64,000 nucleotides of DNA from Halorubrum sp. CBA1229. GTDB lineage: Archaea; Halobacteriota; Halobacteria; Halobacteriales; Haloferacaceae. The position numbers were made by a program, and so were the translations under genes. The notes beneath the pieces are model-generated. The model made no database searches. It was not told where the DNA came from and saw nothing but the letters and a program-made list of their open reading frames with translations. The stretch covers positions 3,100,001 through 3,164,000 of the forward strand of contig NZ_CP054585.1 of assembly GCF_003721435.2 (NCBI RefSeq). The letters run 5' to 3'. How positions within the stretch are numbered: position 1 is the first letter of the stretch; the number at the start of each line of letters is the position of its first letter. This document shows, piece by piece, positions 28,537-33,857 of the stretch.

Positions 28537-28953
28537 TCACTCCAAGAACCGCGACTCGACATCTCCGGACGGCATCATACACTGGTCCTTCTTGCCAAAC
28601 CACCGGTATCGGTTGTCGGCGACGAAGTCGTAGATCCGGTCACGGACCGATCGGGGAAGGTAGCGGAACGGGGAGAGGAGCCGATAGGCACCGCCGAGCC
28701 CCGTCGCGATCTGGATGATCGCCGACGACTTCACGTAGCTCTCGCCGTCTTCGATCAGGACGACCGACTCCAGTTCGTCGCTCGGCAGGTCGTGCTCGGC
28801 CAGCAGCGCCTGTCCGGCGTCGGACTGGAGGGAGGCGAAGCGGTACTTGCCCTCCTCGTCGCGGGGGAGGACGAACTGCACGAACCCGCTACAGAGGTTA
28901 CAGACGCCGTCGAAGAGGATGACCGACTCGTCGTCGGGGGGATCCGTGGGCAT
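28537..28953 (-). CDS. DCC-family thiol-disulfide oxidoreductase-like protein (DUF393)
   Basis: The 138-residue protein starts with VILFDGVCNLCSGFVQFVL, the DxxCxxC-type motif (here FDGVCNLC) of the DCC family, which has a thioredoxin-like redox role. FASLQSDAGQALL and IIQIATGLGGAYRLL (about 80) are also family features. It is cytoplasmic or membrane-associated. It is encoded divergently from an HTTM-domain membrane protein 163 bp away. DCC and HTTM genes are often neighbours, so the two may serve one redox or carboxylation process at the membrane. Confidence 0.88.
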   Translation of the reverse strand: MPTDPPDDESVILFDGVCNLCSGFVQFVLPRDEEGKYRFASLQSDAGQALLAEHDLPSDELESVVLIEDGESYVKSSAIIQIATGLGGAYRLLSPFRYLPRSVRDRIYDFVADNRYRWFGKKDQCMMPSGDVESRFLE

Positions 28954-29115
28954 CGCGTGGCTGAAGTACGGACCCGCCGCAGTTCATGCTTCCGGTCGGG
29001 GGACCCGAGTCCCGCTTCGATCGGCAGACGGAGGACCGTCGAACGCGGAAGCCGGTCTACACCAAGCTTATGCCATTCGGGGGGTGATGCTGTCGAACGA
29101 CGGGGTCACGAAAGT

Positions 29116-30765
29116 ATGGATCAAAAGCCCTCCGACGGCAGTACCCGATCGCGACTCTCGAGCGCCATCGACCGCTTTTCGGCGGCGTTGGCCGCGCGAG
29201 TCGCGATCGATCTGCGCGCGCTCGCGGCCTTCCGGATCGGGCTCGGCGCGCTGTTGATAGCCGACCTCGCGCTGCGCTCGCGCTCGCTGACCGCCTTCTA
29301 CACAGACGACGGCGTGCTCCCACGCAGTGCGTTCCTCTCGGACTACTCGGCGAGCCACTCGCTGCACGCGTTCGTCGGCGAGCCGTGGGCCGTGGCGCTG
29401 CTGTTCGTCGTCGCGGGCGCGTTCGCGCTCGCGCTGCTCGTCGGGTACCGGACGCGACTCGTCACGGCCGTCTCGTGGGTGCTGCTGCTCTCGTTGCACG
29501 CTCGGAACCCGATGCTGTTGAACTCGGGAGACAGCCTGCTGCGCATGCTGCTCTTCTGGAGCTTCTTCCTCCCGCTCGGCGCACGGTGGTCGGTCGACGC
29601 CGTCAGGCGAGCGGACGCGCCGGAAGACGATACCGACCCCGGAATTGCGGGTTCGATCGGGCCCGCCGTGGCGACCGTCGCCGGGTTGGCGCTCCTGTTG
29701 CAGATGCTCGTGATGTACCTGACCAACGCCGTCCACAAGTACGAGGGCGACCTCTGGATGAGCGGCGAGGCGGTCGTCTACGTCATGCAGGCCGACCACT
29801 TCACCTACCTCCTCGGCAACCACATCGCCGAGTTCCCCGGCCTGCTGCGCGCGCTCACCGTCCTGTGGCTCGTGCTCCTGTTCGCGTCGCCGCTGTTGCT
29901 CCTGCTCACCGGGATCCCGCGCGCCGCGGTCGCCTCGCTGTTCGTCGGCATGCACCTCGGGATGCTGGTCACGATGCCGATCGGTCTCTTTCCGGTCGTC
30001 GTCGTCGTCGGTTTCATTCCGTTCTTCCAGACGCCCGTCTGGGACGCCGCCGAGCGCGCCGTCGCTCGTCTGGGCCCGTCGACGCGGATCGCGCGCTGGC
30101 GTGCCGGGCTCGAATCCCGGACGAGGGCGCTCCTCTCGCTCGGCGCGTCGCTCCCCTCGCTCGGTGCGTCACTCCCTCGACCGACCGCGTCGGAGCGCCT
30201 CGCCGGCCTGCGGGACGCGGACCTCTCGGCGGGCCTCGCGCGCGGACGCGTCCTCTTCTCGACAGTGCTGCCGTACGTCTTCCTCGTCCTAGTCGTCCTC
30301 TCGAGCGCGCAGGCGGTCGACTACACCGAGGTTCCCGAGCCCGGCGAGGACGTCTTAGACGCCGTCGAGATGGACCAGTCCTGGCGGATGTTCGCGCCCG
30401 ATCCCACCCACACGACGCGATGGTTCGTCGTCTCCGGAACCCTCGAAAACGGGACCGAACGGGACGTGTTCCGAGACGCGGCGGTACGTTTCGAACGACC
30501 GCCGCGTGCGGAGACCACCTATCCGAGCGCGCGCTGGCGGAAGTACCTCACCAACGTCTACTCGACCGACAACGAGAACCACCGCTCGTACCTCGCGAAC
30601 TACCTCTGTGCGGAGTGGAACCGCACCCACGAGACGGGCGTCGAGAACGTGACCGTCTACCAGCTGTACGAGCGAACCGACCCCTACAACGGGACCGTCG
30701 AGGCCGAGGGACAGTTCGAGATGATCGAGTACGACTGCTCGGGCGAGTTCGTCCAGAACGAGTGA
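29116..30765 (+). CDS. HTTM-domain membrane protein (vitamin K carboxylase-like)
   Basis: The 549-residue protein has about nine hydrophobic helices in the first 330 residues. Its start RVAIDLRALAAFRIGLGALLI, together with AFYTDDGVLPRSAFLS, is the HTTM signature (helices related to vitamin K-dependent gamma-carboxylase). After a linker of Leu/Ser repeats (SLGASLPSL) and one more helix, the last 170 residues are a hydrophilic exported domain with several N-x-T/S sites (FAPDPTHTTRWFVV, YPSARWRKYLTN). The ATG at 29116 starts just before the basic N-terminus. It is divergent from the DCC gene. The substrate is unknown; true gamma-carboxylation is not claimed. Confidence 0.8.
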   Translation: MDQKPSDGSTRSRLSSAIDRFSAALAARVAIDLRALAAFRIGLGALLIADLALRSRSLTAFYTDDGVLPRSAFLSDYSASHSLHAFVGEPWAVALLFVVAGAFALALLVGYRTRLVTAVSWVLLLSLHARNPMLLNSGDSLLRMLLFWSFFLPLGARWSVDAVRRADAPEDDTDPGIAGSIGPAVATVAGLALLLQMLVMYLTNAVHKYEGDLWMSGEAVVYVMQADHFTYLLGNHIAEFPGLLRALTVLWLVLLFASPLLLLLTGIPRAAVASLFVGMHLGMLVTMPIGLFPVVVVVGFIPFFQTPVWDAAERAVARLGPSTRIARWRAGLESRTRALLSLGASLPSLGASLPRPTASERLAGLRDADLSAGLARGRVLFSTVLPYVFLVLVVLSSAQAVDYTEVPEPGEDVLDAVEMDQSWRMFAPDPTHTTRWFVVSGTLENGTERDVFRDAAVRFERPPRAETTYPSARWRKYLTNVYSTDNENHRSYLANYLCAEWNRTHETGVENVTVYQLYERTDPYNGTVEAEGQFEMIEYDCSGEFVQNE

Positions 30766-30894
30766 GGTCGGACCGTCTCGACGGGCGCGGAGGCGATCGC
30801 TCGCGTCCGTCCGCCATCGGCAATCCCCCACGTCACCGCGATTGGCGGCCAGAGAGGGCGCTGCGATGCCGGTTCTGATAATTTGGGTTATAGA

Positions 30895-30902
30895 CTTTTA
30901 TT
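30895..30902 (+). promoter_or_regulatory. TATA element for the multi-PAS gene
   Basis: CTTTTATT is centred 25-26 bp before the ATG at 30924, indicating a leaderless transcript that probably also covers the receiver-HalX gene. Confidence 0.6.
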
Positions 30903-30923: not shown

Positions 30924-33035
30924 ATGGAGCCTCGAACGGAATCAGTTCGGACGGTCGTTCACGTCGGCCCCGCCGGGGACCGGGTCCGGGAAGCGGCCGC
31001 GAAATCGACGGTCGTCGACGGACCGGACCGCGTCGTCACCGTCGATCCCGAGGCTATCGGAGACGCCTCGCCGGATCCGGCCGACGTACGGCTGATCGTC
31101 TGCGAGCTGACGCCGGCGTCGGGGGTCGATTCCCTCGTCGCGATCCGCGAGGCGGTGCCCGGCGTCCCGTCGCTCGCGGTCGTGGCCGACGACGCCGCTG
31201 TTGACGACGCGCTCGCGGCCGGAGCGACCGACGTGCTGGTCCGCCGGGACGGCGTCGACGAGCCGACGCTGCTCGCTCGACGGATAGACACGGTCGCGAC
31301 CACGCCGACGCGGCCGCCGCTCGCCGCCGAGCCGACCGAACGCCTCCTCGATGCGATCGACGACGCGTTCTACACCCTCGACACGGACGGCGCGCTCAGG
31401 CGGTGGAACGACAGCCTCGGAGAGATCACGGGGTACGGCGACGACGAGCTGGAGGGGAAGCACGCGCTGGAGCTCTTCGCCGGCGCCGACAGAGACCGGA
31501 TCGCAGACGCCATCGAGACCGTGCTGGAGACCGGCACGGCAACCGTCGAGGCGGAGCTGATCGCGAAGGACGGCGGGGCGACTCCGATCGAGTTCACGGG
31601 CGCCCTCGTGACCGACGCCGACGGGACGCCGCGGGGCATCGTCGGCATCGGTCGGAACGTGACCGATCGCCGGGAACGCGAGGACCAGCTGTTGCGACTC
31701 CGACAGGCCGTCGAGACGGTCGTCGAAAGCGCGCCCCTGACGCTGTTCGAGGTCGAGCCCGACGGGACGGTCTCGACGGTCCGCGGCGAGACCCTGTCGC
31801 GTCGGCTCCGCCGTCGGGTCACCCCAGGAGACGACGTCGCGGAGGTCTTCGGCGACCAACCGCGGGTTCGCAGCGCCGTCGACGCCGCGTTCGCGGGCGA
31901 GTCCGCACACGAGCTCGTCGACCTGGCCGACGCGACGCTCGAAACGTGGCTCCAGCCGTCACTGGACGAGACCGGCGCCGTCAGTCGCGTGATCGGCCTG
32001 ACCCTCGACGTGACGGAGCGGGAGGAGCGAGCCGGCATGCTCGATCAGATCCAAGCGAACGCCGGCGAGGTCATCTGGATGTCCACTCCGAGCAAGGAAT
32101 CGATGGACTTCGTTACCGATTCGTACGAGACCGTCTGGGGGCGCTCACCCGAGACGCTCGACGAGAACGCGACCTCGTTCGTCGAGGCGGTCCATCCCGA
32201 CGACCGCGAGCGGGTCGAGGCGGCGGTGGCCGAGCAGCGCGAGGACCCGGACGCGTACGAGGAGACGTATCGGGTGATCCGACCGGACGGCGAGGTCCGG
32301 TGGGTCCACGACCAGTCGTCCGGCGTCTACGAGGGCGGTGAGCTGACGCGTATCGTCGGCATCGCGACGGACGTCACGGTCCGGAAACGCCGCGAGCGGG
32401 AGCTCCGGTTGAAGAACCGCGCCATCGAGACCGCGCCGGTCGGGATCGCGATCCACGAGGCGACCGGACCGAGGAGTCCGATAACGTACGTGAACGAGGC
32501 GTTCGAAGCGACCACGGGATACGAGCCCGACTCGATCGCCGGCGAGGGCCTCTCGGAGCTCGTCGGCGACGCCACGGACGGGGATCGCATACGGGAGCTC
32601 GAGACGGCGCTCGAGGCGGGCGAGCACCGGTCGCGCACCGCCGTGCTCCACCGCGCTGACGGGACGCCCTTCTGGGGCCGGATCGCCGTCGCTCCCGTCG
32701 TCGAGACGGACGGCGACGTGACGCACGCGGTCACGTTCGTCCAGGACGTGACCGAGTCGAAGGAGCACGAGCAGTCGATCGAACGGCACCTGGCCGAGTT
32801 CGGCGAAGTGCTCGCGGAGGACCTCGGGGTCCCGCTGCGGGAGGCGAGGGGACACCTGGACGCGGCGATCGACGACGGAGCGGACGAGGAGCTCCGACGG
32901 GCGACGCGATCGATCGAGACCGCGATCTCGCTCGTCGACGACCTCGCGACCGTCCACTCGTTCTCGGTCGAACCGCGACATCTCTCGGAGTCGATGCGGG
33001 AGTCGCTGCCGGGGTCCACCGCGGGGGACGAGTGA
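30924..33035 (+). CDS. Multi-PAS pseudo-histidine kinase with N-terminal pseudo-receiver
   Basis: The 703-residue protein has no membrane helix. Residues about 8-122 resemble a receiver domain, with Glu61 (LIVCELTPASG) where phospho-Asp is expected. PAS-type domains follow at about 138-252, 262-370, 375-485 and 492-610. Residues 618-690 match the H-box helices of haloarchaeal kinases (consensus F-x-x-V-V-S-H-D-L-R-N-P-L), but FGEVLAEDLGVPL has Glu632 in place of His. The protein then ends with no HATPase domain. It therefore cannot autophosphorylate in the usual way. Pairing with the next gene, whose receiver is also altered, suggests a phosphorylation-free signalling unit. The last PAS lacks the Cys of LOV domains. 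Confidence 0.85.
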   Translation: MEPRTESVRTVVHVGPAGDRVREAAAKSTVVDGPDRVVTVDPEAIGDASPDPADVRLIVCELTPASGVDSLVAIREAVPGVPSLAVVADDAAVDDALAAGATDVLVRRDGVDEPTLLARRIDTVATTPTRPPLAAEPTERLLDAIDDAFYTLDTDGALRRWNDSLGEITGYGDDELEGKHALELFAGADRDRIADAIETVLETGTATVEAELIAKDGGATPIEFTGALVTDADGTPRGIVGIGRNVTDRREREDQLLRLRQAVETVVESAPLTLFEVEPDGTVSTVRGETLSRRLRRRVTPGDDVAEVFGDQPRVRSAVDAAFAGESAHELVDLADATLETWLQPSLDETGAVSRVIGLTLDVTEREERAGMLDQIQANAGEVIWMSTPSKESMDFVTDSYETVWGRSPETLDENATSFVEAVHPDDRERVEAAVAEQREDPDAYEETYRVIRPDGEVRWVHDQSSGVYEGGELTRIVGIATDVTVRKRRERELRLKNRAIETAPVGIAIHEATGPRSPITYVNEAFEATTGYEPDSIAGEGLSELVGDATDGDRIRELETALEAGEHRSRTAVLHRADGTPFWGRIAVAPVVETDGDVTHAVTFVQDVTESKEHEQSIERHLAEFGEVLAEDLGVPLREARGHLDAAIDDGADEELRRATRSIETAISLVDDLATVHSFSVEPRHLSESMRESLPGSTAGDE

Positions 33036-33083
33036 GATGACCGACCGCCGAGTTCGCTCGGCCGGTCGATCGCCGGTCGGTGG

Positions 33084-33857
33084 GTGATCCGCGTGGAGCT
33101 CCCGGCGTCGGCGATCGTCGTCTGCGAGTCGAACCGGACGAGGGCGGACCTCTACGGGCTCTGGCTCGACGACCGCGAGGTCCGGCAGGCGCTGACGCGG
33201 TCGCAGTTCGTCGAGGCGTTCGACGCCGGTATCGCGGTCGTCGTGTTGGAGCACTCGTTCGGCGACGAGGGGGCGGAGTCGATACTCGATCGAGTCGGAT
33301 CGCGGGCGCCTCACTGCCGCGTGGTCGGGGTCCGAGACCGGTCGACCGCGACGCCGGAACCGAGATACGACCGCGAGATCGAACGGCCGGTGTTCGAGGC
33401 GGAACTCGCCGAGTCCGTCGAGGCGCTGTTCAACCGCGCGAACTATCACCTGCTGCTCGACCTGTACTACCGGACCACGGTCGTGATCTCGACGTACGAG
33501 TGGCGGGCCGACGGCGACCCGTCGGACGACGAGCGGTACGGGCGGCTCCGCGACCGGGCCGATCGCATTCAGGGCTATTTAAACGGGCTCCGGCCGCGGA
33601 TGAGCGACGAGGACGTCCGCGCCGTCGCACGGGGGATCACGATCGCCGACGCCGCCGCCGTCGACGCCGACGCGACCATCGAGAGCAAGTACCGGCCCGA
33701 CGGCTGCTCGCGGTGCGGACAGGACTGGAGCGAACCGATAGACGGCGGCGATTCGGCCGCGCGGCTGGCGGCGTACGTGTGGCGCTGCGTCAACTGCGGG
33801 CACGTCGACATGCGCGCGGACCCGAACCACCGACACGTCAGCTCGTTCAGGCGCTGA
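33084..33857 (+). CDS. Pseudo-receiver with HalX domain and zinc ribbon
   Basis: The 257-residue protein aligns along its length with haloarchaeal receiver-HalX regulators (consensus V-V-D-D-E, then L-L-D-R-x-M-P-G, then K-P-V). Here the acidic pocket reads VVCES, the phospho-Asp is Glu56 (VVVLEHSFGDEG) and the Lys of KP is Arg101 (IERPVF). HalX-like helices run from about 116 to 172 (FNRANYHLLLDLYYRTTVV onward). A C-terminal zinc ribbon has CSRCGQ (208-211) and CVNCGH (235-238). Glu often mimics phospho-Asp, so it may be constitutively 'on' or act as a partner platform. It starts with GTG 48 bp after the pseudo-kinase gene, probably in one transcript. Confidence 0.8.
   Translation: MIRVELPASAIVVCESNRTRADLYGLWLDDREVRQALTRSQFVEAFDAGIAVVVLEHSFGDEGAESILDRVGSRAPHCRVVGVRDRSTATPEPRYDREIERPVFEAELAESVEALFNRANYHLLLDLYYRTTVVISTYEWRADGDPSDDERYGRLRDRADRIQGYLNGLRPRMSDEDVRAVARGITIADAAAVDADATIESKYRPDGCSRCGQDWSEPIDGGDSAARLAAYVWRCVNCGHVDMRADPNHRHVSSFRR

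Follow-up and report, generated by a model that had tools for sequence, protein, structure and literature searches.

Two adjacent genes of Halorubrum sp. CBA1229, here called K and R, probably encode a pseudo-histidine kinase and a pseudo-receiver that signal through protein contact. The fuller form of this proposal, to which we give roughly even chances, is that the two are dedicated to one another, that neither partner can be phosphorylated, and that a helical hairpin and tail of K switch the pseudo-receiver by allosteric contact alone, making a phosphate-free two-component system that has been stably inherited across haloarchaeal families. R lies on the same strand as K, 48 bases after its end. 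We analysed the genes within a stretch of 64,000 nucleotides (the window), where a sequence-only reading had described a two-component-like pair without phosphotransfer residues; the coordinates and frames were as it gave them, and so were Glu61 and Glu632 in the product of the longer ORF (703 aa) and Glu56 in that of the shorter (257 aa; Table 1).

Table 1. Features of the K-R locus, with positions counted from the first base of the window
Feature	Positions	Strand	Content or basis
K promoter, candidate operator	30876..30902	+	TGATAA and TATA-like TTTTATT
Gene K, putative pseudo-histidine-kinase, 703 aa	30924..33035	+	receiver-like, four PAS, HisKA-like hairpin, conserved tail, without HATPase
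Receiver-like domain of K, residues 8-126	30945..31301	+	predicted beta-alpha pattern, alignment
Four PAS domains of K, residues ~139-255, 262-368, 380-485, 499-611	31338..32756	+	Pfam, predicted fold
HisKA/DHp-like helical hairpin of K, residues 612-676	32757..32951	+	HMM, profile-profile, AlphaFold
K tail, TVHSFSV..R	32949..32999	+	most constrained stretch of K (dN/dS ~0.07)
Gene R, 257-aa ORF: pseudo-receiver, HalX-like helices, HalOD2 zinc ribbon	33084..33857	+	ORF, Pfam, model
Pseudo-receiver of R (Glu56 codon 33249-33251)	33108..33443	+	fold matches to solved receivers, residue alignment
HalX-like long helices of R	33444..33641	+	sub-threshold Pfam HalX, model, alignment
HalOD2 zinc ribbon of R, two CxxC	33693..33839	+	PF18547, E 1.4e-13

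The layout that had been proposed for K, a receiver-like region followed by four PAS domains and an H-box, is borne out by Pfam matches to all four PAS domains, a predicted receiver-like fold and a HisKA HMM match. The AlphaFold model of K, which has a low overall pTM of 0.34 and a mean pLDDT of 78.5, contains an N-terminal receiver-like beta-alpha order, four PAS folds and two long antiparallel helices at the HisKA region, and a fold search with this model was filled by PAS matches and speaks to the PAS part only. The acidic pair is absent from the receiver-like domain, in which Glu61 (codon 31104-31106) occupies the Asp site, where strand 3 of the predicted fold ends. The fourth PAS domain (32418-32756) is LOV-like, and blue-light sensing was considered for it and rejected because the photoactive Cys is missing, a Leu being aligned with that of phototropin LOV1; the usual flavin-contact Asn/Gln is also altered.

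With Pfam HisKA, K scores just 14.5 bits (E 0.13). An HMM built from 23 of this genome's own canonical HisKA domains aligned residues 623-677 (1.1e-7), with Glu632 (codon 32817-32819) over the phospho-His (vvsHdLRNpL against VLAEDLGVPL), and a profile-profile comparison (hhalign), with 18 K sequences on one side and 16 canonical HisKA sequences on the other, gave a probability of 99.5%. These two comparisons rule out a misaligned Glu632, uphold the claim that it replaces the phospho-His, and point to K as a homologue of HisKA/DHp domains. Counted from where its HisKA match starts, K has ~79 residues to the C terminus; the other genuine HisKA proteins listed in the same genome have ~200 or more residues after the match start, and all of them keep the His. 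The lack of a HATPase domain in K was likewise correctly read, there being no Pfam match, nothing resembling such a domain in the sequence and none in the predicted fold. A hidden HATPase was also rejected, as the window had no match, neither the window nor the genome holds a short stand-alone HATPase gene, and none occurs consistently beside the pair, which has no shared neighbour of this kind. If a pseudo-histidine kinase is defined as a HisKA homologue missing at least one kinase function (PMC12632262), then K, judged from its sequence, is one, having neither the phospho-His nor a HATPase domain in the same protein.

The true start of R is probably the GTG at 33093, judged by the conserved starts in relatives, in which case Glu56 would be Glu53. 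R had been described as a receiver-HalX protein, and the receiver part stands: R is predicted to fold into a receiver, long helices and a ribbon, and its model matches solved receivers with Z of 16-17 and an rmsd of ~2 over 110-130 residues. For the HalX part, Pfam HalX (PF08663) gives 15.4 bits against a curated cut-off of 23.2, so that the helices are called HalX-like here; just before these HalX-like helices the alignment contains the conserved stretch RANYHLLLDxYYRTT. At the five catalytic positions of a receiver (two acids, Asp, Thr/Ser and Lys), the R of the window has Glu, Ser, Glu, Arg and Arg, which includes the reported Glu at the Asp site and Arg at the Lys site and falls short of the full set; we use the term pseudo-receiver as defined in PMC12632262. 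The acidic pocket is degraded, as had been said, in that its second acid is Ser, but it is not empty because the first acidic residue (Glu) is kept. The zinc ribbon that had been read as an addition to R is present, but it is a known Pfam domain, HalOD2 (PF18547), which scores 50.9 bits against a cut-off of 27. HalOD2 ribbons have been suggested possibly to bind DNA or RNA (Galperin et al., PMC5847659), and the sequence of R makes its ribbon a probable nucleic-acid-binding output.

A search for K in 392 genomes of the order gave 15 matches with E <1e-45, the next best being 1e-18, and the 15 next-best loci that we inspected all keep the His and have >220 residues after the match start. K is therefore a discrete family, set apart both by this gap and by the longer, His-bearing nature of the next-best loci. 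Three further Halorubrum genomes and five named GTDB loci brought the set to 23 K, all 23 with R immediately downstream, so the gene pair is indeed conserved in other haloarchaea. It occurs in Halorubrum (10 of the 52 genomes searched) and in several genera of Haloarculaceae, the genera outside Halorubrum including Haloarcula, Halorientalis, Salinibaculum and Halomicrobium. No HATPase domain was found in any of the 23 K, and every one ends in the tail TVHSFSV(K/E)xR (AIHSFSV in one), which is missing from the canonical kinases inspected and may be regarded as a candidate contact site.

Whether homologues keep the His and the Asp has a different answer for each protein. The His site of K is Glu in 19, Ala in two, Asp in one and Lys in one, and His in none, whereas the Asp site of R is Asp in 11, Asn in four, Glu in three, Ala in two, Gly in two and Ser in one, with all five catalytic residues together in none of the 23. 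Glu61 is present in 16 of the 18 K checked by alignment. Glu at the R site is limited to the window, L074 and L075, which form a single clade of three in the tree (this tree describes relations among the pairs only, without HalOD2 outgroups); most Halorubrum relatives have Asp, and distant R have Asn, Ala, Ser or Gly. Glu at three phospho-sites is thus a true description of the window, but Glu56 had to be dropped as a family rule. Although Glu632 and Glu61 are widely kept, a general role for Glu as a phosphate mimic is unlikely, because the R-site Glu is found only in the window's clade and Asp stands there in almost half of the set. Across the family the constant feature appears to be the loss of a phosphotransfer or working site, not Glu. 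Among HalOD2 proteins unlinked to K most receivers are also degenerate, and some adjoin intact kinases: at L085, L086 and L089 such regulators lie beside kinases that keep the His, those of L085 and L086 having Ser at the Asp site and so being pseudo-receivers beside real kinases.

In pairwise comparisons among the Halorubrum sequences (Nei-Gojobori type counts), K has a dN/dS of ~0.39 and R one of ~0.42. The values are lowest for the tail of K (0.07), its PAS3 (0.19) and the zinc ribbon of R (0.24), and highest for the receiver-like domain of K (0.72). Purifying selection on both genes, strongest in the tail and the ribbon, indicates a maintained module and, with the conservation of the pair in all 23 loci, agrees with the earlier judgement that this is not decay. 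R is intact in all 23 and K is damaged in three, by an assembly gap in one and by an in-frame stop in two (TGA at window Trp584 in L074, genome G394; TAG at Tyr149 in L079, genome G120). These stops may be either true nonsense codons or sequencing errors; given that R is intact in both genomes, it may act without K in some species. The flanking genes (SDR, MFS and others) are common to the Halorubrum loci only and differ between families, so the two genes alone seem to form the unit. At 28540-30762 of the window, a DCC1-like thiol-disulfide oxidoreductase gene lies beside a divergent gene for an HTTM-domain (vitamin K-dependent carboxylase-like) membrane protein.

Upstream of K, a TGATAA element (30876-30881) begins 48 bases before the start, with the TATA-like TTTTATT ~27 bases before it. 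The element is kept at ~48 bases in Halorubrum, and GATAA is present in the upstream region of K in 20 of the 22 loci with a readable upstream, the remaining two having no such element in the 120 bases searched. The longer form, TGATAAYNYGSG, occurs just twice in the genome, the second time inside another gene region, and TGATAA was accordingly rejected as a marker of a wide regulon. Our guess is that the element is tied to R. Loci L097 and L103 have inverted TTATCA/TGATA copies before R as well as the element before K, and promoter-like TGATAA copies precede unrelated genes in G301 and G330.

Given that K cannot phosphorylate without the His and a HATPase, and that R is unlikely to be phosphorylated without a full catalytic site, signalling by contact is the simplest reading of the parts that remain, namely, in K, PAS domains for sensing, a hairpin for dimerisation, normally a docking surface for receivers, and the constrained tail, and, in R, the receiver fold with the zinc ribbon. 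K would be a soluble, probably dimeric sensor, in which the PAS domains would sense either a ligand in the cytoplasm or the redox state there, and their state would shift the register of the HisKA-like hairpin. The pseudo-receiver of R would dock on this hairpin, on the tail or on both, like a receiver on a normal DHp domain, and the docking itself would be the signal. Binding of K would alter the pairing that the receiver and HalX-like helices of R mediate and in this way control the ribbon, which would probably bind DNA, possibly at the K promoter (autoregulation). In the window's clade, the Glu of R may bias it to the active state. We infer the K-R binding, the DNA binding by R, the autoregulation and the ligand.

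It is also conceivable, though unlikely, that in the Asp-keeping lineages R still receives phosphate, either from a different kinase or from a small phosphodonor, with K regulating this flow as a scaffold, competitor or phosphatase and the window being a recent derivative. The Asp kept in 11 R and the >20 intact histidine kinases of the genome would fit such a history, as would the Lys, which is kept in Haloarculaceae-type lineages except L111 (Arg) and L211 (Thr); in L113 the Thr/Ser is the sole catalytic residue missing, so that phosphorylation of this R by another donor is possible. However, no R has the full set, and none of those from Halorubrum retains either the second acidic residue or the Thr. 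HisKA phosphatases use a Thr or Asn four residues after the His, and its absence from K (Val in the window, varied elsewhere) argues against a phosphatase.

We think it less probable again that R is held permanently in the on state, a Glu standing in for phospho-Asp as it does in the engineered PhoB D10A/D53E, with K as an accessory. The R of the window does carry the same pair of changes as this constitutively active protein (second acid lost, Asp to Glu), the PhoB D10A/D53E structure is among its fold matches, and the Glu could form a pair with the Arg that replaces the Lys. Locked activation is therefore possible for the window's clade, but it cannot explain the family, because only three R have the Glu and both close and distant relatives have other residues. 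Least credible, and in our view very doubtful, is a decaying two-component pair that is being lost: the nonsense codons in K of G394 and G120, the patchy presence in the genus and the fast evolution of the K receiver-like domain would agree with it, yet the rest is under purifying selection, R is intact throughout, and the pair and its promoter are conserved across genera.

Returning to the contact model, each half of the pair is of a recognised kind, as HisKA proteins without HATPase, pseudo-kinases, pseudo-receivers and HalOD2 are already described (PMC5847659, PMC12632262, PMC4395418). What is new is the matched, operon-linked pair; we found no description in the open-access literature of such a pair with both partners inactive. 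The archaeal "HisKA, no HATPase" proteins, mainly of Archaeoglobi and Methanomicrobia (Galperin et al. 2018, PMC5847659), resemble K in combining PAS sensors with a HisKA-like domain without HATPase, but they keep the His, whereas K has lost it, which places K outside that class, and is tied to one regulator. HisKA domains without His are rare (0.9%; PMC12632262). R shares the HalOD2 domain with two CxxC and the HalX-like helices with the REC-HalOD2 response regulators (PF18547, PMC5847659), of which it is a K-linked subgroup with a degenerate receiver, as in most other HalOD2 receivers examined. Like pseudo-receivers and aspartate-less receivers, in which Asp is commonly replaced by Glu and Lys by Arg (PMC12632262, PMC4395418), R and the N-terminal domain of K are without catalytic residues. 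Only two of the 20 bacterial pseudo-receiver examples in a 2025 review are non-orphan (PMC12632262); unlike these mostly orphan proteins, R has a fixed partner, itself inactive.

Pseudo-histidine kinases such as DivL have, like K, a HisKA-like domain without the phospho-His, which in DivL is used for protein contacts. DivL still has its ATPase domain and targets another kinase, whereas K has no ATPase domain and is linked to a regulator. The same logic that we propose for K and R, known here from sequence, is seen in NifL-NifA, where a PAS sensor with a kinase-like H domain controls a transcription factor by binding it directly (PMC8219145), although NifL keeps a GHKL ADP-binding domain that K does not have, NifA is a different kind of activator from R, and we claim homology no further than the PAS and H-like domains. 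The 2025 review calls the switching mechanism of pseudo-receivers a mystery, with almost all studied examples being orphans, and its authors were aware of no published study of archaeal pseudo-receivers (PMC12632262). K-R provides a pseudo-receiver with an obvious inactive partner, conserved in 23 genomes that include species with named strains, and a phosphate-independent switch is thereby directly testable.
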